NCBI GenBank assembly: GCA_024281675.1
Contig: JAMXAG010000001.1
Location: 1-64,000 of the forward strand
Direction of reading: 5' to 3'
From: Nitrosomonas sp.
GTDB taxonomy: Bacteria > Pseudomonadota > Gammaproteobacteria > Burkholderiales > Nitrosomonadaceae
Length of the DNA: 64,000 nucleotides
How positions within the stretch are numbered: position 1 is the stretch's first letter; every line of letters starts with the position of its first letter. Positions 11,726 through 60,188 of the stretch are shown piece after piece. The translations under genes and the position numbers were made by a program. The notes below the pieces were generated by a model. That model was not told the origin of the DNA. It did no database searches and was given only the letters and a program-made list of their open reading frames with translations.

Positions 11726-12340
11726 TTAAGATAACTGACTAATTAAGGCGTGATATTTGATTAACTGTCGGTGTTTTCTTAAACGTTCCGCTTTAATAAT
11801 GCAGACTAATTCATGGAGTGCGTATTCTAACTGATTATTGATGACAATATAATCAAAGTCGTGAATATGGCTGACTTCCTCTCGAGCCGCGGTCAATCTT
11901 TTTTGAATAACTTCTGGATCGTCTTGACCCCTTGAATTCAAGCGTATCGCCAGGGCTTCGAGGGAGGGGGGGAGAATAAAGATACCAATCGATCTCGTAA
12001 AAATCCGCTGCACTTGCTTTGCACCCTGACAATCAATTTCTAGAACAATGTCTTGTCCAGCCGAAATTTTTTCGTGAATCCATTTTTCGGAGGTGCCATA
12101 AAAATTACCATAAACCTCCGCGCTCTCTAAAAATTCTCCATTGTTGAGCATGCGCTGGAAAGTTTCCCGGCTGACGAAATGATAATCTTCGCCATCAACT
12201 TCAGACGAACGAGGTGACCGGGTTGTATGAGAAATGGATAAATTTAAACCAAGATCTGATTGAAGCAATGACTTGACTAAGCTTGTTTTTCCGGCACCTG
12301 AGGGGGCACTGATAATAAACAAATCTCCTGAAGTATCCAT
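11726..12340 (-). CDS. gmk: Guanylate kinase
   Basis: A 204-residue cytoplasmic enzyme that phosphorylates GMP to GDP with ATP. The P-loop is SAPSGAGKTSL (about residues 11-21). The GMP-binding pattern is HTTRSPRSSEVDGEDYHF (Arg, Arg and Glu at the expected spacing), followed by YGNFYGT and the lid/core motif VLEIDCQGAKQV. Length is normal. It is upstream of rpoZ in the usual arrangement. It also offers an internal comparison for the guanylate-kinase-like domain of the TIR fusion at 56.7-57.8 kb: the P-loop Lys-Thr here is Lys-Asp there. Confidence 0.97.
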   Translation of the reverse strand: MDTSGDLFIISAPSGAGKTSLVKSLLQSDLGLNLSISHTTRSPRSSEVDGEDYHFVSRETFQRMLNNGEFLESAEVYGNFYGTSEKWIHEKISAGQDIVLEIDCQGAKQVQRIFTRSIGIFILPPSLEALAIRLNSRGQDDPEVIQKRLTAAREEVSHIHDFDYIVINNQLEYALHELVCIIKAERLRKHRQLIKYHALISQLS

Positions 12341-12371
12341 GGGTTTTCTGATCTGGTATTAATCGTTAATT

Positions 12372-13922
12372 TTATTTAGTGTTCAGTATCGCTAAAACTT
12401 GGCTTTTTAAAATCTTAATCAAACGGATCTCTTCATGCGCTGTTTCTTCGGAAGCATCAAATTCGCGATCGCCATAAATAAAACCAATGGGTCTTTTATT
12501 CAGCACGAGTGGCAAGACAATAAAACTACGCGCATCCGGTAATACAGCACGATACCATTGAGGCAACATTTCAAATACTTTGGGTGCCTTCGCATTGGAG
12601 ATCAGCAGATCAGAGTCTTTTTCCATTGCAAGATAAAATAAATCGACTGACGGTGTAATGGGAAAATGAAAAGCTTTTTGAAATTCAGCGCTGTTCTTAC
12701 CGAAAGAAGTACGTGCACGGTACTGATTTTTTTGCGTATCCCTCAAGCACAATGTAATAAACCGAAATCCGAGACTATTATAATAGTATTCTAAAATCAA
12801 TAACATCAAATCACTGAGCTTATAGTTACCGGTGGTAATGATTTCTGTTACGTCTTGAATGGCAGATAGTAACAATGCTGCTGAATTATAAGGTTTGCCA
12901 CTGGCGTGACGTTGGGTAATTTGTATTTCATCGATGCGCGTATCGGTTAGTGCGAATTCTGCCAGAATATTATCTTTTGCTTTTTGTTCGGATTCAACCA
13001 GTTGCTTGTAACTGGATTCCTTGTCTTCAACAGGATCAGGAAATAAATTAATATTTGCCTTGAGCGCGGTTGTTTCGGTTGTTGCTTGTTGTATCAGAAG
13101 ATCAAGTTTTGGCATATCGAGATTGAACGCTTTGCCAAATCTCGCCAGAGTATTGTTTTTAGAAGATAAGTGTTCTCCAGAGTTGGTATTGATCGCAAAT
13201 TGTGCGGAAGCTTCCCCAAACTCCGCTGCTTGCTGAATCCATTCTTGTTTATTTTTGGCTGGACTAAGCGTGCCTGAGGGTCTATTTTTCGTGGCATGAA
13301 TGATGCTGGCAGGTATATTCCATTTTTCGAGGATGGTTTCTGTAAAATCACTTAAGCTACAAGAATACAATTTTCGTGCAGCTAGCTCCGGGGTACAATT
13401 TTCTTCCTTTGCTAGTGCCATAACTTCTTGGTATTTTTCTGGTTCATAAGCTGCCAGTAGCAAACGTCCCATGTTTTTAAATAAGGCCGCGATGGCAACC
13501 TCTTCAACATGATCAAATTGACTATGTTTGGCAAGTTCTTGACATAGCATGCTTGCTGTAAGCGCTTCGATTAGTTCGGCACGAACAAATTCGGCATGTT
13601 TACCCGCCAATACTTTGTCAACCAGAAGAATCGCCAGCGCGCAGGTCTTGACGGTTTCAAATCCGAGCAAAAAAATTGCTTTGGTGATACTCGTGACAAC
13701 TTGATTAGAACTTGAACGAAAAGCGATGGAATTGGATAGACGGAGAATCTTTTGTGTTAACGATACATCGGACAAAATAAAATGTGACAATTGCCGTATC
13801 GACTCATCTTCGGACGTGGATAATTGCACAATCTGGGTGATTGCGCCTCCTAAAGATGGAAGATCTAAATCATCATCAATGGTTTTTAGAAGTTGCTCTT
13901 TTAAAGAATACCTAGTATCCAC
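12372..13922 (-). CDS. HDOD-domain regulatory protein with GAF-like C-terminus
   Basis: A 516-residue protein. The HDOD domain occupies about residues 10-215: LPSLGGAITQIVQLS at the start, VSLTQKILRLSNSIAF, and the helix IFLLGFETVKTCALA are the usual landmarks, with the degenerate HD site typical of HDOD proteins (no full set of metal ligands). Residues 330-510 have the pattern of a GAF sensor (EYYYNSLGFRFITLCLRD, then FIVLPLVLNKRPIGFIYGD). The pair HDOD-GAF is a common signalling architecture whose partners vary. No signal peptide. It ends 31 bases before gmk on the same strand and may be read together with it. The ligand and the target are unknown. Confidence 0.85.
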   Translation of the reverse strand: MDTRYSLKEQLLKTIDDDLDLPSLGGAITQIVQLSTSEDESIRQLSHFILSDVSLTQKILRLSNSIAFRSSSNQVVTSITKAIFLLGFETVKTCALAILLVDKVLAGKHAEFVRAELIEALTASMLCQELAKHSQFDHVEEVAIAALFKNMGRLLLAAYEPEKYQEVMALAKEENCTPELAARKLYSCSLSDFTETILEKWNIPASIIHATKNRPSGTLSPAKNKQEWIQQAAEFGEASAQFAINTNSGEHLSSKNNTLARFGKAFNLDMPKLDLLIQQATTETTALKANINLFPDPVEDKESSYKQLVESEQKAKDNILAEFALTDTRIDEIQITQRHASGKPYNSAALLLSAIQDVTEIITTGNYKLSDLMLLILEYYYNSLGFRFITLCLRDTQKNQYRARTSFGKNSAEFQKAFHFPITPSVDLFYLAMEKDSDLLISNAKAPKVFEMLPQWYRAVLPDARSFIVLPLVLNKRPIGFIYGDREFDASEETAHEEIRLIKILKSQVLAILNTK

Positions 13923-14182
13923 TTTATCTGGATGTGAAGTAGTCAGATTTTTATCCTTTGCGAAGAGTCGCTATAAAGAAACCTTGTTGTTGGCATAAGT
14001 AAGGAGTATTTGATTGAATGATAATACAGATTACGTTGATAGCAATAGTTTTGTAGTGTGTTCGGCGTGATAAAATTCGCATGCCATCAAGAATATGTGT
14101 ATGCAGTTTCACAAGGTCGTCAAAATTGTAGTCGTTTCCTTGGCGATGAAACAGTCAGAAAATGTAATGATCAATTAAAGCT

Positions 14183-14231
14183 GGGTGCTTTTTAGCATCC
14201 CAATGTAAACAGAGTGACCTGTTTACATTGG
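14183..14231. terminator. Tandem hairpins, probable terminator
   Basis: Two adjacent inverted repeats. The larger has a perfect 13-bp stem (CCAATGTAAACAG at 14200-14212 with CTGTTTACATTGG at 14219-14231) and a 6-base loop. The smaller (GGGTGCT...AGCATCCC, 14183-14200) abuts it. They lie 65 bases past the stop of the haloperoxidase-like gene and before the HDOD gene, so termination of the former on the minus strand is the simplest role. Confidence 0.55.
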
Positions 14232-14295
14232 TTAATGCATCATTCGATTGCTATTCAATGTTTGAAGTATAAAGGGAAGGACATATTTCTGATGT

Positions 14296-16023
14296 TTAGC
14301 TTAATTTCATAACTTGTCCCTGCGTAATATGGATCATTTGGCGATCAAAAGACCGGAAGGTGAAAGCAGTGGGTCTTTCCGCATACTCTAGTGTACGTTT
14401 ACGTAGAATTTCAATTGCGATCTGTTCGCCAAGTCGCATACTTCTGGTATTGTCGCTGCGCCAGTGCACTCCACCCATACTACGACCCATGGCGACATTA
14501 CTCGCAATCTTGTTTAGTTCTCCGCCCACAGTCATTTTGTTAGCATCTTGACCTGCATAGGGCTCAGGTGCATTGAAAATTTCTCCACTAATATGCGTTC
14601 CTGGTTGCAATAAATGTTGCAGTTCCAACGGATCTTTACGGTTTTTGTTTTCTTGTGCGGAACTCAGTAGATCATTCAATTTGGCGTCTTCGTCGAACCA
14701 AGCTTTGAGTACGGTGACGCATGCACCCGCTACAGTGGCATGACCTGCACCATAAGCAGGATGGTTAGGTGAGCCAGCCGAGAATGCAATTGGTAGAAAT
14801 AGGGTTTCATCGCCACCACCGTTTTGCGTATTATTATGCATCTTGATTCTAGCTGCCGCTTCGGTTCCAGCGACCCAAGCAGGTAAGCCATAGTTACGTT
14901 GACGGCAGTTGAATCCATTGAATTGCATTTGCACAAGTCCGCCATAGACTTCCGGTCGAGCGCGGCGGTGAACAAGCCATTTTTGACGCCAAACGACTTT
15001 TAATGCACGGCTTGCGACTTCTGAAACCAGTGTCAATAGATCGGGGCCACCGAGAGTCGCAAAATTACCTTCGCGTGCATATAAATTACCTTTATAGGGA
15101 TTACCATTATTCAATGGCGCACCAATGGAGTCCAGAAACAAAGCTGCATTAAAGTAAGCCTGGTGCAGTGCATCGCGGTTAACAAAACGAGCAAGATCAC
15201 GCATGGTTGAAATATAACGAGTGACTTCAGGATAATAAGTTTCGCGGCCCGCTAATTGGTCTCCGTAATAATTGCACTTGCCATAATCTCGCCCAAACTT
15301 ATCCTTGCCAGTGTTCTGTGCTCGTAACCAATCACTGTGATTTGTTAGAAAATCTTTTCCTCTAATATAGGGAACTTGTCTTGGGTCGATGGTTTGTACA
15401 CCATAAGGGACATTGCGGATAAAAAACTGGCTAACCAGTGGGCCGTATTCCTCATCATGTAATCCGCAACGAAACACGGTTTGTTGTGTAAGATTAAGTG
15501 CGCCATTAGCTTGTGGCAAATCTAAGCCCATTCGCAGCCGACCTTGTGCCATATCAGTGTTTAAAGCTGTGTTAAATACGCTTTCTATCTCTGCTGCAGC
15601 AATCTGGACAGTCGGATCTGTTGCTAAAGAAGCCAGCGGTAGATCACGGAGTAGCGCCATCCAATATAATTCAGTCATTTCGGCAGCAGTGCTGTCAGAT
15701 AAGATGTCTGGCGCTGGTAACATTTCCAGATCCTTGGGATCGGGGCCATGTACTTCAGTTGCTGCGCCAGACAGTGGGCTTGTGAATTTTGCACTTGTTA
15801 AAATGACAAGTGGATCATTGGTTGGGTAAGTTCCTCCGGGAACGTCTTCGAAATTGTTTGGTGCACCAGCTTCGATTTGCAAGCAGGTATTCTTGAATTT
15901 TCGGTAAGCAGAAGCATCGACTTCTCCATATTCATTATGTGGCAGAGTTTTATGAAAGTTGCCAATGAATGGAGTTTCAGAAGTAATTAATGATTCGTCA
16001 TGATTGGGGGTTGGAAAGGTCAT
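14296..16023 (-). CDS. Vanadium-dependent haloperoxidase/PAP2-superfamily protein
   Basis: A 575-residue protein of the vanadium haloperoxidase group. The vanadate/phosphate-binding residues can be found: KWLVHRRARPE (about 349-358), HPAYGAGHATVAG (about 420-432, corresponding to the PSGH block with the catalytic His), and SMGGVHWRSDNTRS (about 512-525, the SRxxxGxHxxxD block). The long N-terminal portion fits bromoperoxidase-like bacterial members rather than short acid phosphatases. No signal peptide or Tat motif is visible, so it appears cytoplasmic, or exported by an unrecognised route. Whether it halogenates, or acts as a phosphatase, cannot be told from sequence. It is flanked by intergenic regions and is probably monocistronic; TCTCCTGT on the plus strand (AGGAGA on the minus) precedes the start. 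Confidence 0.85.
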   Translation of the reverse strand: MTFPTPNHDESLITSETPFIGNFHKTLPHNEYGEVDASAYRKFKNTCLQIEAGAPNNFEDVPGGTYPTNDPLVILTSAKFTSPLSGAATEVHGPDPKDLEMLPAPDILSDSTAAEMTELYWMALLRDLPLASLATDPTVQIAAAEIESVFNTALNTDMAQGRLRMGLDLPQANGALNLTQQTVFRCGLHDEEYGPLVSQFFIRNVPYGVQTIDPRQVPYIRGKDFLTNHSDWLRAQNTGKDKFGRDYGKCNYYGDQLAGRETYYPEVTRYISTMRDLARFVNRDALHQAYFNAALFLDSIGAPLNNGNPYKGNLYAREGNFATLGGPDLLTLVSEVASRALKVVWRQKWLVHRRARPEVYGGLVQMQFNGFNCRQRNYGLPAWVAGTEAAARIKMHNNTQNGGGDETLFLPIAFSAGSPNHPAYGAGHATVAGACVTVLKAWFDEDAKLNDLLSSAQENKNRKDPLELQHLLQPGTHISGEIFNAPEPYAGQDANKMTVGGELNKIASNVAMGRSMGGVHWRSDNTRSMRLGEQIAIEILRKRTLEYAERPTAFTFRSFDRQMIHITQGQVMKLS

Positions 16024-16513
16024 TGGATATTCTCCTGTCTGTTTGTTATGTGTGAATCGGTGGGTATTGCATCAAAGCGAATAGCAGAAAAATTACGCGA
16101 AAATGAACTGTGATTTTCTGATAAAGCTATTTCTTATATTTGCGCAAACATTGTCGCAGTACCCCCCATAAATTATCTGTGGTATTTACCACATAGATTT
16201 AAATGCGCTGCGTCTGATTGAGTGGACGGAGAAGTTATCAGATTCACACTTATCGTTCAGGGAATACCGAAGCAGTCCAACTATTGCATTTCTACAGTAA
16301 GGCGCAGTTTTTTATTGGCTTAGGAGAAGAAGCTTTCAGTACCCAGTTATTTTGGGAAGTCAGTTATGAGTACAAAGCTATTTTGTTGAAACTATCGACA
16401 ATGATAACGAGGAAGTTATAAATCAACTCAAAGTGATGAAAGGAGCGAGAGGAATGTTTGGGCAACTCTGCTCTTTAGAACTCGGTCGCAAGCGACCGAG
16501 TTCTTTATAACGA
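16024..16513. other. Intergenic region between dsbA and the haloperoxidase-like gene
   Basis: About 490 bases without a gene that I can support. A short frame on the plus strand reads FVETIDNDNEEVINQLKVM (near 16380-16440) but lacks a clear start and homology. A strong inverted repeat lies at 16478-16503, just past the end of dsbA. TGTGG-TATTTA-CCACA (around 16180-16196) is a minor inverted repeat upstream of the haloperoxidase-like gene and could be regulatory. Confidence 0.4.
16478..16503. terminator. Inverted repeat, probable dsbA terminator
   Basis: GAACTCGGTC-GCAAGC-GACCGAGTTC, a 10-bp perfect stem that can extend to 12 bp with a 2-base loop, 11 bases past the dsbA stop codon. A short T run (TTCTTTAT) follows on the plus side only; on the minus side the tail is TAAAGAGC, so termination would be atypical or bidirectional. 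Confidence 0.55.
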
Positions 16514-17152
16514 TTATTTCTCCTTGCGTGCTTTGTCAATCAAGGCATTTAACGTTTTGATCGTGTCTTCAGGAGTGGGGCTCATGCCGCCACTGGTTAG
16601 ATATTTGCCATTTACAACTATAGCGGGCACTCCGGTCAGTTGATATTGGCGTGACATTTGTGTCGATTTGGCGACTTGGTTTTGTACGGCAAAGGAGCGA
16701 TAGGTGTCTTCGAATTTTTTCCGATCAATGCCTTCCTTTTCAATCCAGCCGAATACAACGGCTTCATCACTTAGGTCAATCTTTCCGCGATGAATCGCAT
16801 GGTAGATTTTGTCGTGCAATGGATCGAGCAATCCCATTGCCTCTATCGTATAGAATACTTTGGCGCCCGTTGTCCAATTGGGCCTAAAAATCGCTGGAAC
16901 ATAACGGAAGTCGACATCTGAAGGGATGTTTTGCGCCCAAGTTTTGACATGAGGGTGCAAGCTATCACAGTGTGGACAGCCATACCAGAAAAATTCTAAT
17001 ACTTCGATCTTGCTGTCGTCCCGTGTGGGTTGTGAGTTCTTTAGGATGGTGTAATTTTTGCCTTCCACCAATTCAGCATATGCATTGGTAAAACTTACCA
17101 AACTAAAACAGAATAAGAAAAAAAGAGGCATAAAAAAAATGCGATGATTCAT
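16514..17152 (-). CDS. dsbA: Thiol:disulfide interchange protein DsbA
   Basis: A 212-residue periplasmic oxidase that introduces disulfide bonds. Signal peptide at residues 1-26 (FFMPLFFLFCFSLVSFTNAYA, cleavage after AYA). The thioredoxin-fold active site is CPHC in FFWYGCPHCDSLHPH (about 54-60), and the cis-proline loop is GVPAIVVNGKYL (about 168-180). Length is normal for DsbA. It is downstream of a SPOR-domain gene and argS, a gene order conserved in betaproteobacteria. The first-neighbour spacing (114 bases) allows its own promoter. Confidence 0.95.
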   Translation of the reverse strand: MNHRIFFMPLFFLFCFSLVSFTNAYAELVEGKNYTILKNSQPTRDDSKIEVLEFFWYGCPHCDSLHPHVKTWAQNIPSDVDFRYVPAIFRPNWTTGAKVFYTIEAMGLLDPLHDKIYHAIHRGKIDLSDEAVVFGWIEKEGIDRKKFEDTYRSFAVQNQVAKSTQMSRQYQLTGVPAIVVNGKYLTSGGMSPTPEDTIKTLNALIDKARKEK

Positions 17153-54080: not shown

Positions 54081-54191
54081 GCCTAACCCATCGCTCAAGC
54101 GGACGCGCACCGGCATGCCGTTCCAGGCTGTCATTTCATTCTCAGCCTTCCACGTCCTGCCGGCGCTCGCCGCTTAGCTCAAACGTTAGAC
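54081..54191 (+). other. attC site (111 bp)
   Basis: R'' core GCCTAAC (54081-54087) and R' core GTTAGAC (54185-54191). Inside, GCTCAAGCGG pairs with CCGCTTAGC with one unpaired C, the extra-helical base typical of attC. The rest forms an imperfect stem with a variable centre. This is the best-preserved attC in the window. Confidence 0.85.
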
Positions 54192-54216: not shown

Positions 54217-55305
54217 ATGGCGACCAATAAGAACCAGCACTTTGTGCCTCGCTGCCACTTGCGCCCATTCACGCTGGGAGCTGAAGGCATGGCCATAAGC
54301 TTGTTCAACTTGGAGCGTAAGAAATTAATTTCTAATGCACCGGTCAAGAATCAATGTTCAAAGGACTATTTTTATGGAATTGATGAGCAACTTGAAGAGG
54401 CAATTCAGCTTATCGAATCAGGCTACAGTCAAGCGCTTCGTGACCTGATTCAAGACAGTCGAACCTTTTCCAAAGGCAACAAAACAGTCTTCAGAACATT
54501 TTGGCTTTTCCAACACTTGCGGACAGAGGCCGCAGCCTTGTCTGCCGTCCAAATGGCTGAGTCAACAAGAAATCTAGCCGATCTTCCACCGGAGGAGTTT
54601 TCACTTGGCATTAAGGAGGCTGTTCAGATTGCTTGCCGCACGTTTGCAGGTGCGATGCATGAGCTTGACGACCTGAAGTTCTGCATTATCAAAAACAAAA
54701 CCGATTTTTCATTCATAACTTCCGATAATCCGGCGGTGCTAACAAATAGATGGCAAATCGATAACGGAAAAACTAATGGCCTCTCATTTGGCATAGGTTC
54801 AGCGGGGATACTTGCACTACTTCCGCTAACACCCAAACTATTGCTATTGGGTTACGATGGTGACGTATACAGCGTACCGAACGAAAATGGCATAGTTGAG
54901 ATTAGAAGCACACGTGATGCAATCGCGCTAAATAGACATCAATTTCTTCAGTGCGTTGCGAATGTTTATGTGCATGAAGTCGCGCATGAGGAGGCCCTTA
55001 TGAAGCATTACTCTGAAATTGAGTCAGCACGACCAAAGGCTCGGCACCTTGTGCACTATGCGCAGATTGACCGCATGATCGGCAACCATACTCGCTATGT
55101 AGTTATCCCATCGGAAGAGAGGGACAAAACAAAGGAGGCAATTATGCATTCCCAAGTCATTCATCCAAACCCTGGAATGTGGCCTAGTCAAATAAAAATC
55201 CGTCCAAATGGCTCTGTCTACACCAATGGCACAGGCATGGGTTATGTCAGGTTCTCCCGAACGGTTATGGCGCACGGTCCAGCCTTCAAGCGAGAACGAA
55301 CTTAA
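54217..55305 (+). CDS. DUF4238-family cassette protein
   Basis: A 362-residue protein. The N-terminus NQHFVPRCHLRPFTLG (about 6-21) is the hallmark of DUF4238, followed by a region with FRTFWLFQHLRTEAAA and a middle section SFITSDNPAVLTN (about 165-178), a common DUF4238 pattern, and the C-terminal LNRHQFLQCVANVYVHE. The family function is not established. There is no signal peptide. The start ATG has no clear Shine-Dalgarno sequence, as is frequent in integron cassettes. It is bounded by attC sites at 54081-54191 and 55314-55380, so it is one complete cassette, upstream of the TIR-kinase cassette and in the same orientation. Confidence 0.8.
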   Translation: MATNKNQHFVPRCHLRPFTLGAEGMAISLFNLERKKLISNAPVKNQCSKDYFYGIDEQLEEAIQLIESGYSQALRDLIQDSRTFSKGNKTVFRTFWLFQHLRTEAAALSAVQMAESTRNLADLPPEEFSLGIKEAVQIACRTFAGAMHELDDLKFCIIKNKTDFSFITSDNPAVLTNRWQIDNGKTNGLSFGIGSAGILALLPLTPKLLLLGYDGDVYSVPNENGIVEIRSTRDAIALNRHQFLQCVANVYVHEVAHEEALMKHYSEIESARPKARHLVHYAQIDRMIGNHTRYVVIPSEERDKTKEAIMHSQVIHPNPGMWPSQIKIRPNGSVYTNGTGMGYVRFSRTVMAHGPAFKRERT

Positions 55306-55313
55306 GCGAGCAG

Positions 55314-55380
55314 GTCTAACTAATCGTTCAACGCGGACAAAAATGCTCCGCATTTTTGCCGGTTAACTAGGGCGTTGGGC
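55314..55380 (+). other. attC site (67 bp)
   Basis: R'' core GTCTAAC (55314-55320) and R' core GTTGGGC (55374-55380). CGTTCAACGCGG pairs with CCGGTTAACTAG with an unpaired C (extra-helical base), and the centre folds as ACAAAAATGC-TCC-GCATTTTTG. It begins 9 bases after the DUF4238 stop. Confidence 0.85.
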
Positions 55381-55419
55381 TTTGTAAGCAGGCCTATTGA
55401 TCTATTTGCGAGGGGAATC

Positions 55420-55433
55420 GTGAAAAAACCGTA
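55420..55433 (+). pseudogene. Severed 5' end of the TIR-kinase gene
   Basis: GAGGGGAATC followed by GTG AAA AAA CCG TA. The GTG at 55420 has AGGGGA five bases upstream. The codons run into the IS at 55434; the same reading frame resumes after the IS at CCG TAT CTC TAT (56706 onward). The original protein would start MKKPYLYDAFLSHNS. Confidence 0.8.
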
Positions 55434-56705
55434 AAGACTCCTGCACAACCTCGCCTGCCCTTGCAATAACCCACTAAAATAGAGGTAGTTAAAAGAGAAT
55501 TGGAGCAAAAGATGCAGATGAGTTTTGGAGCACTGGAATTGGCAGAGCGATTGAAGCGAGATAATGTTCTGATGAAGATTGATGCGCTGATTGAGTGGGA
55601 GGAGTTACGTCCGAAGCTTACGGGTTTATACAAGCGCGAGTTATCGCATGGTGGAGGACAGGAACCGTTTGATGTGTTGTTGATGTTCAAAGCGATCCTG
55701 CTGGGTCAGTGGCATAGTTTATCGGATGCTGCGTTGGAGCAAGCGCTGTGTGTACGGATTGATTTTCTACAATTTTGTGGATTGTCCTTGTCGGATGCGA
55801 TACCGGACGAAACCACTTTGTGCCGGTTCCGTAACCGTCTGGTAATCAACGACCGACTAGATGGTTTGCTAGGTTCTATTAATGAGCAGCTTCAATCACA
55901 CGGATTGATGATCAAGGTGCGACAGGAGCGGTCATTGATGCCACGCTGATTGAGTCAGCGGCACGAGCGAGGAAGACCATCCTCTTGAGGAGATACCCGA
56001 AGGTAAGGCTGTTCAGTTTGAAGATGGCAGGCAGCCTGGAATCAGCTGTACCGAAGAACAAAGTGCGGATCCGGATGCGACTTGGCTAAAGAAAGGCAAG
56101 AGTCGCAGTTTGGCTACCGCAGTTACCTGGTGGTGGACGCACAAGACGGCTATGTGCGCGGGGTTCACACACTACCTGCCAACCAGAGTGAAATGATGCA
56201 TTTCGAAGCAGCTATCGATGGTGCGCATATCGAGGCGAATCGGGTATATGCTGACAAGGGATCTGCCAGCAATGCCAATCGGCAGTTTCTAAGAAAGCAA
56301 AAGATCAAGAGCGCAATCATGCATCGTGCGTACAAGAACAAACCACTCTCGGCACGCCAGAAGCTGGCGAATCAATTGATCAGCAAAAAACGTTATATTG
56401 TCGAACAGTGTTTTGGCACAATCAAACGCTTATTCAGAATGGGGCGCCAGCTGCTTCGGTACGGTACGGTAAAAGTAACGCCCAAGTCATACTGAAAAGT
56501 ATCTGCATGAACCTGAAAAAGCAGCCAACAAAATCTTCGTAGACCAACCATTAAGGAGAGCAATCCGTCCAAATGTTGCATAAAGGGAAAATTCCCTAAA
56601 AAAAGGAAAAAACTTCACTTTCTACCAAAATGACGTGCAATAACTCTCAGTTGGATATTTTTCTCTGTCACTACAGCTAAATTCTCGCGGTTGTGCAGAG
56701 GTCTT
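55434..56705 (+). mobile_element. IS5-like insertion sequence, 1272 bp, inside the TIR-kinase cassette
   Basis: The ends are imperfect inverted repeats: left AAGACTCCTGCACAACC and, on the other strand, right AAGACCTCTGCACAACC (15 of 17 identical). The element is flanked by CCGTA on both sides (55429-55433 and 56706-56710), a 5-bp target duplication. It carries a transposase with DDE features of the IS5 family, broken by frameshifts. Insertion happened after codon 4 of the TIR-kinase gene. Confidence 0.85.
55512..56495 (+). pseudogene. IS5-family transposase, frameshifted
   Basis: The N-terminal part (MQMSFGALELAERLKRD to about 55925) is in one frame with LLMFKAILLGQWHSLSDAAL and IPDETTLCRFRNRL. 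The first catalytic Asp, VIDATLIESAARAR, is in a second frame (about 55914-55975), EEIPEGKAVQFEDGRQPG is in a third, and FGYRSYLVVDAQDGYVRG onward, with YADKGSAS (second Asp) and YIVEQCFGTIKR (Glu), is in the frame that opens near 56082. At least three frameshifts are therefore needed to read it, so it is not functional. The ATG at 55512 is a likely original start (AGCAAAAG upstream). Confidence 0.85.
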
Positions 56706-57800
56706 CCGTATCTCTATGATGCATTTCTTAGTCATAACAGTCTAGATAAGCCACTAGTGGAGGAAATCGCTATCGTACTTAAAAGTGCTGGCATTCATGC
56801 CTTCCTTGATAAATGGCACCTTGTTCCGGGGGAACCGTGGCAAGAGTCGATTGAAAATGCTATTGCTAATAGCCGCACATGCGTTGTGTTTATCGGAAAG
56901 TCCGGACTGGGTCCTTGGCACAAGGAAGAGATGCGCGTATTAATTGATCGCGCGATTAAAAATAAAATAAATAAAATTATTCCAGTCTTGCTTCCAAATG
57001 CGGACAGTAACATTATTGTTACTTTGCCTGCATTTCTATCCCGCTACCAGTATGTTGATTTTAGGGTTGGAACTGCATCAGTTGATGCATTTCGGCATTT
57101 AGTGTCCGGAATCAAGGGAACTCCATTTGACAATGTAAAATTCCCCTTTGAAGCTTACCCCACAAAAAAACCAAATAAATTGTGTGTAGTGCTATCTGGT
57201 CCATCGTCAGTTGGGAAGGATGTTGTTATGGGAAGACTGATGGAGGCCGTACGCAAAGAAGGTATCTTTCCCGCATCTCTAAGGAAGTTCACAACAAGAA
57301 TGAGGAGAGAGTTTGAGGAAGAAGACAGCGATCCATTTATATACTTAAGTGAGAAGGATTTTATTGATAAAGTCGACAGAAATCAGATTGGCTGCGTTAG
57401 GTTTAGCTACGGGAACTACTATGGAATTGATGCTAGCTTTTCGGTAGGAATCGAGGGGCATCAAATAATTTTTGTTACACAGCGTTTATATAAAGAGATT
57501 ATTATATTCAAGCAATTAGCATCTGATGCAGGATTTAATGCTATTTCAATATTATTGTTAGCCGATTCTGAAACATTAAGATCAAGAACTCAGCAGCGAT
57601 TATTCGATAAAAATCAAAAAACAAAAAGATCAGCCCAAATCCTTGAAGACGTTCCATTTATTCAAAGTAACATGACCATGCTTAATGATAAATTCGACCT
57701 AATAATTGATAATAGCGATCATTCTAGGTTAGCTGAAACAGTCGAAGCTTCACTTTCCCTAATTAGGGAGAAAATAAAAAAGGCAATAGTTTCTTCTTAA
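56691..57800 (+). CDS. TIR domain fused to a guanylate-kinase/PhnN-like P-loop kinase (5' end rebuilt by IS)
   Basis: A 369-residue open frame starting at a TTG inside the right end of the IS. Residues 7-140 are a TIR_2 domain: YDAFLSHNSLDKPLVEEI, then LVPGEPWQESIENAIANSR (E52 or E55 is the candidate catalytic Glu) and GPWHKEEMRVLIDRAI. Residues 162-365 are a nucleotide-kinase domain: VVLSGPSSVGKDVVM (P-loop with Asp after Lys, as in PhnN), FTTRMRREFEEE (Arg-Arg-Glu spacing of guanylate kinases), YLSEKDF, FSYGNYYGID and a C-terminal LIIDNSDHSRLAE. TIR domains often cleave NAD+ in defence and signalling. The pairing with such a kinase is not one I know. Without the IS the protein would begin MKKPYLYD from a GTG with a ribosome binding site. 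The only gene-level lesion is the insertion; no frameshift follows. Confidence 0.8.
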   Translation: MCRGLPYLYDAFLSHNSLDKPLVEEIAIVLKSAGIHAFLDKWHLVPGEPWQESIENAIANSRTCVVFIGKSGLGPWHKEEMRVLIDRAIKNKINKIIPVLLPNADSNIIVTLPAFLSRYQYVDFRVGTASVDAFRHLVSGIKGTPFDNVKFPFEAYPTKKPNKLCVVLSGPSSVGKDVVMGRLMEAVRKEGIFPASLRKFTTRMRREFEEEDSDPFIYLSEKDFIDKVDRNQIGCVRFSYGNYYGIDASFSVGIEGHQIIFVTQRLYKEIIIFKQLASDAGFNAISILLLADSETLRSRTQQRLFDKNQKTKRSAQILEDVPFIQSNMTMLNDKFDLIIDNSDHSRLAETVEASLSLIREKIKKAIVSS

Positions 57801-57808
57801 ATTGTCGT

Positions 57809-57876
57809 GCCCAACCAATCATTCCACCGGACCTCGTGCAAAAAGCTGCGCAGCGCCGGTTAGCTCTACGTTAGGT
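57809..57876 (+). other. attC site (68 bp)
   Basis: R'' core GCCCAAC (57809-57815) and R' core GTTAGGT (57870-57876), starting 9 bases after the TIR-kinase stop. ACCGG near the left pairs with CCGGT near the right (57826-57831 and 57856-57861), with AAAGCTGCGCAGC in the loop. It shows the TIR-kinase gene is a cassette. Confidence 0.8.
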
Positions 57877-57884
57877 ATAAGACA

Positions 57885-58268
57885 ATGTATTTACTTGGTA
57901 AATATTTTTGCATTTTCATAATTAGCCTTTTTTATTCTCAGGCATATGCAGGTTGTGTCCTTCCAGTTCCTGATGGTGACGGTCCCATTCCATCTCACGC
58001 AAATGTAAAGGGTCACATTGTTTCTATTAAAAACAATATTGTCACAGTTCGCTCAAATATGACAAAAAACAAAGTGTCAGTTATTGTTCCAGAAGACCTA
58101 ACCCTATACAGTGCATTGGGTGGTAGCTCCGAGGCAAAAGGTACCCGCGGGTTATTGGTAGGTCAAAAAGCTTGGGTTTGGTTTGTCGGTTGTAAGCGAG
58201 ACAGAAAAACAATACCAGAAGCAGCGTATTTCCAAATATTCTCCTCAGCCCCCAATGACCAACCTTAA
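57885..58268 (+). CDS. Small secreted cassette protein of unknown function
   Basis: A 127-residue protein with a signal peptide (about 1-22, YFCIFIISLFYSQAYA, cleavage after AYA). The mature part has two Cys (CVLPVPDG and GCKRDRK, possibly a disulfide), and a beta-rich stretch GHIVSIKNNIVTVRSN and KVSVIVPEDLTLYSA that resembles small OB-like folds, but no family is recognised. It starts 8 bases after the attC core and ends at the next attC, so it is a one-gene cassette with almost no leader. Confidence 0.65.
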   Translation: MYLLGKYFCIFIISLFYSQAYAGCVLPVPDGDGPIPSHANVKGHIVSIKNNIVTVRSNMTKNKVSVIVPEDLTLYSALGGSSEAKGTRGLLVGQKAWVWFVGCKRDRKTIPEAAYFQIFSSAPNDQP

Positions 58269-58269
58269 T

Positions 58270-58329
58270 AACTAACCCATTTATCAAGCGGGGCGCGTTA
58301 AAATGCCTCCCTTATGTCAAACGTTAGGC
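58270..58329 (+). other. attC site (60 bp)
   Basis: R' core GTTAGGC (58323-58329) is perfect. The R'' core AACTAAC (58270-58276) differs from RYYYAAC at the second base. TTATCAAGCGGGG on the left can pair with CCTCCCTTATG on the right with one extra-helical base. It separates the secreted protein from the DUF3024 gene. Confidence 0.7.
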
Positions 58330-58338
58330 GCTTTAATC

Positions 58339-58687
58339 ATGGCTATTAGTGAATTCGAAATTAAAAGATGCGAAAAGCTTGCAACTCAATTCATTGAGAA
58401 ACATCGACCACCTGCTCACCTACGTAGTAAATTAGATTTGTGTTTTCGAATCGAAGAGAAAAGCCAGAGCCTAGAGCTCTTTGAAATCAGGCCACATTGG
58501 CAAAATGAAACTGAAAAAATTGAAAACTCTATTGTCAAAGCGACTTATAACAAAAGCAAAAAGAATTGGAAGGTTTTATGGATGCGTGCTGAAATGGCAT
58601 ACCTACAAACCCGTACCAGAAGTTGCATCGCTCGAAGATTTTTTAACATTGGTCTCAGAAGATGAACACGCTTGTCTCTTTAGGTAG
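58339..58687 (+). pseudogene. DUF3024-family cassette gene with a frameshift
   Basis: Frame one reads MAISEFEIKRCEKLATQFIE, RPPAHLRSKLDLCFRIEEKS, LELFEIRPHW and KATYNKSKKNWKVLWMRAE, a typical DUF3024 protein, a family frequent in integron cassettes. At about 58588-58592 the frame breaks: the expected continuation LKWHTYKPVPEVASLEDFL and SEDEHACLFR is found in the +2 frame to 58687. A small deletion between repeated CTGA motifs (GCTGA-CCTGAAATGG to GCTGAAATGG) would explain it. The function of the family is unknown. A truncated product from frame one would have 108 residues. Confidence 0.8.
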
Positions 58688-59084: not shown

Positions 59085-60188
59085 TCAAGTCATCCTCTGG
59101 CGCAGTGTGTCACCATTTACCTGTGAGGCGAGAGTCATAGCAAGATGTTTGAGTTTGTCTAGATCTTCAAGTCCATCGAGAAATCGTTTCGGAATACCAG
59201 AAAGACCTACTTGGGCACCTACAAGGGCACCCGTGAGAATAGCGCGGGCTTGATTTTGCCCTCCGCCATTGACCGCATGCAGCACAGCGGATTCGAAGTC
59301 GTTTCGGAAACGAGCAGCAAGATAATAGGCGGCAGGGAGTTGGTGATAAATGGCACAGGGCATGCCGTACACAATCGACACCTTCCATGCTGGTTCTATA
59401 CGTATCTCTATATCTGCCGCAGCTTCAGCCATATAAGACGGCGTGAGCAAGGCATCTGGTGAAGCGAATCGTCTGGCGCGAGGCGGATCGGGATCACCTG
59501 GGCGCGGTGGTTGCAAATCGGCAAAGGTGACGGCATGAAAGGGTAATTTCCCGGTTTTTACCAATTCCATCAATTTTCCAGATAGTGTTTTATCCAGGGC
59601 ATGTCCTTGCACCAACATGCCCAGCACCGCAGCATAAGCTACGGTCATCGAGATTACGGTATCATCGATTTGGGTCAGGTGGGTATTGCTTGCGACCACA
59701 GTAGCAAGTTCAGCAGGCTGAAATGCGTAGCGAACCGCAAGCGCCAGTGTGCGCTCAATTGCTTCCGTGTCATCCGCATGACCACCGGTTTGTCCCCACG
59801 GCAATTTCTGCTCCACACGTCGCCGCCATGCTTCCCGAACGGACTGGCTGGTGTAACCGCCCGGTCCATTCATCGGCGTACCGTCGAGAAACGGAAACAA
59901 CTCTTCATCCATGCGGCGGCAAAAATCCCCCTCATTATATCCGCCATGTTCAACGAGGGATTGGAGCGTGAGAGTAAGAATGATGCCTGCTTGAGAGAGT
60001 TGGCCGGCCTTGCGGCCACTATGATATCGACCAGGCTTGGGATCGGTATAGGTAGTAATCCATTCCCCGTAGTCACGCCGAAGTTCAGCGAGATCATAAT
60101 ACCAATGAGGGCCGAGAGCCAGAGCATCACCGATAAAAGCTCCCATGATGGCGCCGGCGGCGCGTTCTTGTGTGGTCGTGTTTATCAT
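59085..60188 (-). CDS. ADP-ribosylglycohydrolase-fold protein lacking the canonical metal-binding Asp residues
   Basis: A 367-residue protein. The N-terminus AAGAIMGAFIGDALALGPHW and the late GALVGAQVGLSGIPKRFLDG show the DraG/ADP-ribosylglycohydrolase fold. However, the TDDT motif expected after the first helix reads GQLSQAGI (about 63-70), and the late GGDTDT motif reads GGGQNQ (about 315-320), so the two-metal site cannot form in the usual way; HADDTEAIERT (about 135-146) is the only Asp pair. It may bind ADP-ribose without classic catalysis, or use another mechanism. The gene is on the minus strand, opposite to the cassettes, 20 bases past the last one. Confidence 0.8.
   Translation of the reverse strand: MINTTTQERAAGAIMGAFIGDALALGPHWYYDLAELRRDYGEWITTYTDPKPGRYHSGRKAGQLSQAGIILTLTLQSLVEHGGYNEGDFCRRMDEELFPFLDGTPMNGPGGYTSQSVREAWRRRVEQKLPWGQTGGHADDTEAIERTLALAVRYAFQPAELATVVASNTHLTQIDDTVISMTVAYAAVLGMLVQGHALDKTLSGKLMELVKTGKLPFHAVTFADLQPPRPGDPDPPRARRFASPDALLTPSYMAEAAADIEIRIEPAWKVSIVYGMPCAIYHQLPAAYYLAARFRNDFESAVLHAVNGGGQNQARAILTGALVGAQVGLSGIPKRFLDGLEDLDKLKHLAMTLASQVNGDTLRQRMT

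Follow-up and report, generated by a model that had tools for sequence, protein, structure and literature searches.

A TIR domain joined to a guanylate-kinase-like domain

In a 64,000-nucleotide stretch of a Nitrosomonas sp. genome (positions 1 to 64,000 of contig JAMXAG010000001.1, assembly GCA_024281675.1; the whole stretch is called the window below), we find a TIR_2 domain and a guanylate-kinase-like domain joined in one open frame of 369 residues (56691–57800, + strand). The same pairing occurs in a second, distant genome; catalytic-type residues are retained in both proteins and the guanine site is changed in both, the Nitrosomonas gene is located in an integron cassette, and further TIR proteins and defence candidates lie beside the integron integrase of the same genome. 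We tentatively propose a single-gene immune-type protein, in which a TIR NADase effector would be controlled by a nucleotide sensor derived from a kinase.

In Pfam, TIR_2 matched residues 12–138 of the frame (88.2 bits against a curated cut-off of 28, E 7.7e-25, profile positions 2–122 of 122) and Guanylate_kin residues 165–353 (27.3 bits against 25.2, E 3.4e-6, profile positions 4–177 of 182). With both scores above their cut-offs, these matches bear out the original prediction, made from the sequence alone, that one frame combines TIR_2 with a P-loop nucleotide kinase. Among solved structures, the first half of the protein matched TIR proteins and the second half guanylate kinases. When the kinase part was compared with NCBIfam, models of guanylate kinase (Gmk) scored best, PRK14738 at 45.2 bits and guanyl_kin at 40.7 bits, both missing their equivalog cut-offs (263 and 160.45 bits respectively), and models of the ribose 1,5-bisphosphokinase PhnN gave only 18.3 and 24.3 bits, below the equivalog cut-off of 156 bits (TIGR02322).

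The single full-length relative that we found, in a Rhodospirillales metagenome-assembled genome (MAG; L038:597–1709, − strand), has 370 residues and a GTG start, and scores 83.1 bits with TIR_2 and 35.5 bits with Guanylate_kin against the same cut-offs. It is identical to the Nitrosomonas fusion at 180 of 357 residues (50%) across both domains. The identity is unevenly spread (74/132 in the TIR part, 7/21 in the linker and 98/188 in the kinase part), a pattern suggestive of constraint on the two domains and drift in the linker. Because the same pairing is present in a distantly related bacterium, the fusion is a real protein type and not an accident of the Nitrosomonas genome; the original prediction had been staked on the fusion occurring in some other genome, as it does here at 50% identity.

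The fusion appears to be very rare. The relative was found by scanning GTDB species genomes (contigs of at least 3,000 bases) with a degenerate P-loop pattern, GP-S-x-[AV]-GKD-[VIM] with minor codon freedom, by which fusions with other P-loops would be missed; it returned 95 stretches, 80 of them examined directly and 15 (L118–L132) covered only by profile search. Full-length searches, with E limits set between 1e-3 and 1e-25, yielded no further match covering both domains in 300 genomes of the order and 398 of the phylum, nor, its own copy apart, in 248 genomes of the order, 289 of the class and 170 of the kin of the L038 organism. Full-length and kinase-only queries together came to 1,994 genome searches, with samples that overlap. 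Kinase-only searches of 61 genus and 274 class genomes returned the window gene and then only weaker matches in frames of Gmk length, and no fusion was found in plasmids, phages or viral contigs. One match reaching the P-loop region in the 300-genome search (G254:C25) proved to be a TIR protein with no match to the kinase profile. In viral contigs, the five matches to the P-loop pattern all looked like chance (in L034 the motif itself is interrupted by a stop codon), and the single match to a motif pattern was an unrelated phage-like protein.

A TIR domain with this partner was not found described in the openly searchable literature. In those open-access sources, mostly without subscription papers, no description of TIR paired with a guanylate or nucleotide kinase was found in the accessible parts of PMC9503650, PMC10853773, PMC10907252 and PMC13012725, and none was apparent in the titles or abstract openings of PMC12133306, PMC13276377 and PMC10810196. 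The nearest published statement, in PMC9503650, concerns a SLOG–guanylate-kinase fusion in phages.

Conserved residues predicted to bind phosphate, and a changed guanine site

We compared the two fusions with 93 aligned rows under the label Gmk; setting aside the PhnN loci L149 and L150 leaves 91 true Gmk rows. Kept in both fusions are the P-loop Gly-Lys (93 of 93 rows), Arg203 (93), Arg206 (90), Glu210 (89) and the lid residues Arg303 (91) and Arg313 (90), and the P-loop Lys-Asp and both arginines of TTRxxR are present in each. Two positions stand out: the guanine-site Glu, found in 91 of 91 Gmk rows, is Cys in both fusions (Cys235 in Nitrosomonas), and the Ser or Thr four residues before Arg203, equally invariant in the 91 rows, is Lys in both. 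These positions correspond to Glu69 and Ser34 of yeast guanylate kinase, which recognise guanine. The column equivalent to D98 was misaligned for the fusions and was left out.

Since the P-loop and arginines are kept and the guanine-site Glu and Ser/Thr are replaced, the residues for ATP and for the acceptor phosphate appear to remain in both fusions while guanine recognition is predicted to be lost. GMP, which had been put forward as a possible substrate of the kinase, is thus disfavoured by the altered guanine site. Loss of catalytic residues from both domains, which would have counted against the original prediction, was not what the sequence alignment gave: residues of this type are kept in both. 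The fusions share with Gmk (TIGR03263, PRK14738; PDB 1z6g, 2j41, 4qrh) the P-loop, TTRxxR, GNYYG and the two lid arginines; they differ from it at the two guanine-site positions, in falling far below the equivalog cut-offs, and in having additional residues ahead of TTR and of the C-terminal strand.

The likeness to PhnN is mixed. Like PhnN, the fusions lack the guanine-site Glu and have a basic residue at the Ser34 position (Lys, as against Arg in three of three PhnN rows); like Gmk, they have the leading Thr of TTR as well as Arg206, both missing from the three PhnN rows. The Lys-Asp P-loop, which the original prediction had taken as a mark of PhnN, had to be rejected as such: the Asp is common among Gmks, being present in 19 of 30 Gmk rows from L154–L185, gathered with no pattern requiring it (a share that may be inflated, as the three members of the fetching profile all have Asp). 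In a tree, the two fusions grouped with each other (support 100/99) and, at the end of a long branch, stood separate from the Gmk and PhnN rows, a placement to be read with the usual warning about long branches.

Alignment of the TIR domain with the AbTIR chains 8g83 and 7uwg places Glu80, the second Glu of GPWHKEEM, opposite the Glu of their WTNYEL stretch, which we take to be the catalytic residue of the AbTIR W-x-x-x-E motif. The relative has GPWHNEEM at the equivalent place and retains the Glu, so that Glu80 is probably the catalytic Glu of the TIR domain, kept in both fusions. The fusion resembles bacterial TIR proteins of the NADase type (AbTIR 8g83/7uwg, 3h16 and Cat1 9mud) in its TIR sequence; it differs from them in that these chains match its TIR part only, and its own activity is a prediction.

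Among the PADLOC models, bSEFIR (44.3 bits) and PDC-S66 (42.4 bits) gave the best scores with the fusion, and TIR proteins in general match such models. The best bSEFIR stretch spans the TIR–kinase boundary (residues 90–336, window 56958–57698; residues 90–315 in the relative). A second domain common to bSEFIR and the fusion is not claimed, since the kinase part by itself matched nothing in PADLOC even with E values as high as 1 allowed.

An integron cassette in defence-like company

The TIR–kinase gene is an integron gene cassette that runs through its own attC (Table 1). The opening R′, GTTGGGC (55374), and the R″ of the closing attC, GCCCAAC (57809), are exact reverse complements, and the upstream cassette, which encodes a DUF4238 protein, follows the same rule (GTTAGAC at 54185, GTCTAAC at 55314). 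The next cassette downstream breaks it, the expected ACCTAAC being present only at 58096, inside that cassette's gene, so that complementarity is exact in two of the three testable links. Our attC calls rest on a folding search run without a chance control, on the R′/R″ complementarity of two successive cassettes and on direct reading; two stricter attC scripts, requiring 7/9 or 7/8 ungapped complementary stem bases, recovered no sites in the window. The attC sites and the Pfam match to DUF4238 confirm the earlier description of a cassette array adjoining DUF4238. Earlier cases of defence genes carried by integron cassettes are cited in PMC12444791.

Table 1. Coordinates of the TIR–kinase gene, its cassette and nearby features in the window
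Feature	Positions	Strand	Remarks
TIR–guanylate-kinase-like open frame	56691–57800	+	369 residues; first 15 bases are the end of the insertion sequence
TIR_2 domain	56715–57104	+	residues ~9–138; probable catalytic Glu80 in GPWHKEEM; Pfam TIR_2
Guanylate-kinase-like domain	57174–57749	+	residues ~162–353; Pfam Guanylate_kin
Kinase-domain marks			P-loop GPSSVGKD 170–177; TTRMRR 201–206; Cys235; SYGNYYG 239–245; lid Arg303 and Arg313
5′ end of the gene before the insertion (presumed)	55420–55433	+	GTG after Shine–Dalgarno-like GAGGGG, a few codons, then the insertion sequence; direct reading
IS5-family insertion sequence	55434–56705	+	inverted ends; IS5 transposase matches; CCGTA on both sides
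Cassette with the TIR–kinase gene	55374–57876 (about 55375–57870)	+	runs through its own attC
attC of the upstream DUF4238 cassette	55314–55380	+	R″ GTCTAAC at 55314, R′ GTTGGGC at 55374; inner 55326–55380 folded
attC closing the TIR–kinase cassette	57809–57876	+	R″ GCCCAAC, R′ GTTAGGT; 68 nt
DUF4238 gene, upstream cassette	54217–55305	+	Pfam E 9.9e-44; PADLOC DUF4238-Pers weak, 22.9 bits
DUF3024 gene, downstream in the array	58303–58665	+	Pfam; PADLOC candidate PDC-S43, 102.7 bits

The integron integrase is located on another contig of the genome (G000:C28; L186:7426–8421) and scores 453.4 bits against a cut-off of 265. Beside it are genes for AbiJ_NTD5 (L186:10180–10920), DUF1883-TIR (12109–12948), pentapeptide-TIR (13670–14899) and DUF6933 (16414–16944) proteins, identified as open reading frames (ORFs) in contig C28, attC boundaries having been worked out only for the window cassettes. 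The DUF1883-TIR protein matches PDC-S66 at 223.7 bits and the DUF6933 protein PDC-S63 at 79.8 bits, and the AbiJ_NTD5 and pentapeptide-TIR genes give weaker PADLOC matches. With DUF3024/PDC-S43 nearby in the window and TIR and other defence candidates by the integrase, the context of the Nitrosomonas array is defence-like, and the integron arrays of one genome are seen to gather TIR proteins with different partner domains.

Just past the cassette array lies a gene of the ADP-ribosylglycohydrolase family (window 59085–60188, − strand, 187 bits). Relatives of the DUF4238 cassette protein occur on three viral contigs (L190:3001–4086, L191:3001–4053 and L192:3001–4089), one of them 75% identical over residues 1–362, and no TIR–kinase match was found near them in the three loci.

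A proposed TIR effector with a kinase-derived sensor, and its rivals

TIR enzymes are an immune currency shared from bacteria to plants and animals, and the trigger that switches them on is often unknown. Under the reading that we tentatively favour, the N-terminal TIR domain would be the effector, which once activated would hydrolyse NAD+ and bring the infected cell to a standstill, giving the protein an anti-phage role, and the C-terminal domain, derived from guanylate kinase, would serve mainly as a sensor or switch rather than to make a product. This domain would still bind ATP and a phosphorylated acceptor, but not guanine in the manner of Gmk. Whether TIR domains assemble into their active form would depend on the state of its pocket, which might be filled, for example, by a nucleotide that arises while phage multiply or host DNA is degraded. 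Such a domain, its phosphate site conserved and its base site altered, would offer a defined pocket for which a trigger or product can be sought, with TIR and pocket in a single compact protein.

We favour a sensor on the following grounds: exchangeable input domains are common in TIR effectors, TIR proteins with several partners (DUF1883, pentapeptide repeats) are present in the same genome, and a defence sensor derived from a kinase has a precedent. In PMC10853773, the derived P-loop kinase of DndF, from DndFGH, is put forward as a nucleotide sensor in phage defence. DndF is nonetheless another protein with another effector, and what it shares with the fusion is the idea of such a sensor. 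Other TIR effectors, namely Thoeris ThsB, TIR-NLR, SAVED-TIR and the DUF1883-TIR of PDC-S66, are alike in having TIR in a defence protein or system, and several of their PADLOC models match the TIR part of the fusion, but they differ in that the partner in the fusion is a nucleotide-kinase-like domain. The fusion does not qualify as Thoeris, for ThsB models gave at most 19.7 bits and none of the nine further ORFs scanned near it has a ThsA-like domain in Pfam.

A more distant kinship may extend to a protein of an Anaerolineae MAG (L096:6302–7489, − strand), in which a class III nucleotide cyclase domain (48.3 bits) is followed by a guanylate-kinase-like domain. Outside the fusions, this was the best match to the fusion kinase profile among 186 sequences (the window and the loci), with 55.3 bits, which is suggestive of kinship between the kinase-like domains. 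It may be the sister of the fusion kinase, though it comes first by only 2 bits and its branch is very long. No second cyclase–kinase protein was seen in 249 genomes of its class, where, with a profile that includes L096, the next best match had 61.5 bits against 324.2 for L096 itself. Ten other Gmk matches in frames of 310–413 residues (L159, L170 and L195–L202) were ordinary Gmk, with no TIR or cyclase upstream.

Several points weigh against the proposed sensor. The kinase domain keeps catalytic-type residues that a pure sensor would not need, and just two members of the family were found. The link to the cyclase–kinase protein is weak, an ordinary Chloroflexota Gmk reaching 53.3 bits, near the score of L096, and the tree does not group L096, with its very long branch, with the fusions. 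Furthermore, no convincing defence gene was found near the Rhodospirillales relative in L143, where Pfam or PADLOC scans covered 11 of its 18 neighbouring ORFs with 100 residues or more. The relative sits between ABC-transporter genes and, on its other side, genes of proline dehydrogenase and the arginine-deiminase family, with regulators also present, and the PADLOC matches around it are weak and look like matches to helix-turn-helix or receiver domains. The survey of homologues and neighbours therefore gave one homologue whose scanned surroundings are metabolic, transport and regulatory. The idea of a mobile defence gene is in keeping with the cassette and its defence-like array; against it stand the setting of the relative and the interruption of the window copy by an insertion sequence (below).

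Because catalytic-type residues are kept, the main rival is a bifunctional enzyme, which we consider unlikely: TIR would break NAD+ and the kinase would phosphorylate an ADP-ribose-type product or a ribose phosphate, the outcome being a new phosphorylated signal or a block on the rebuilding of NAD+. The acceptor site departs from Gmk partly in the manner of PhnN, in the basic residue four before the TTR Arg and in the loss of the guanine-site Glu. ADPR-PP is pyrophosphorylated ADP-ribose. This compound is used by the phage NAD+-restoring pathway NARP1, according to PMC12774641. On the other hand, the PhnN models fall as far below their cut-off as stated above, the fusion keeps the Arg206 that the three PhnN rows lack, and a fused enzyme need not act on the product of its partner. 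We hold it less likely again that the protein is specifically a two-step signal maker, in which TIR would open NAD+ and an erstwhile guanylate kinase with a rebuilt pocket would phosphorylate the ADP-ribose-type product; if true, the outcome would be a phosphorylated immune signal not described before, or a dead-end product by which phages are kept from rebuilding NAD+.

The guanylate-kinase domain of eukaryotic MAGUK proteins is a protein-binding or oligomerising scaffold, and the kinase domain of the fusion could similarly be a module that senses a phage protein. Loss of the guanine-site residues and the fusion of bacterial TIRs to non-enzymatic partners as well, such as the pentapeptide repeats in the same genome, fit such a role, but the P-loop, the Asp that follows it and both lid arginines are conserved at 50% overall identity, unlike in a decayed pseudokinase, and we regard a scaffold as improbable. 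Least probable of all, in our judgement, is a rare metabolic or signalling protein without a defence role that was moved by the integron: it would suit the metabolic and transport genes, and the dearth of convincing defence genes, around the relative, but not the company of TIR proteins and defence candidates in the Nitrosomonas arrays, nor the bSEFIR and PDC-S66 matches of the fusion, for what matches general to TIRs are worth.

An insertion sequence splits the Nitrosomonas gene

In the Nitrosomonas genome the TIR–kinase gene is split near its start by an IS5-family insertion sequence (IS), and the view of 55420–57800 as one coding stretch had to be given up, since the IS occupies 55434–56705. 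Its transposase lies in two frames (55500–55949 and 56082–56495), both matched by NF033581 transpos_IS5_4 and each piece below the whole-protein cut-off, and the target CCGTA is duplicated on either side of the element (55429–55433 and 56706–56710). The TTG start of the 369-residue frame, at 56691, sits inside the right end of the IS. Across the IS from this frame, a GTG at 55420 follows a GAGGGG stretch, and the relative likewise begins with GTG.

Because the IS was inserted a few codons inside the gene, the window copy may be silent. We lean slightly towards its being a dead remnant, with the start region parted from the body and nothing made from this copy, a question separate from that of family function, so that the probability we give it is not to be added to those of the readings above. 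The IS with its repeated target within the first codons and the recurrence of this IS across the genome (29 matches) speak for a remnant; against it, the downstream frame of 369 residues has no internal stops, and the TTG in the IS end could in principle start translation. The 29 matches lie in the same 2.8-Mb genome, and 16 of them, the window copy included, are near full length with 89–100% identity. Several short matches are found at contig ends, and the element therefore probably breaks the assembly. The copy at L189 has an open frame of 371 residues where the transposase of the window copy is in two frames.

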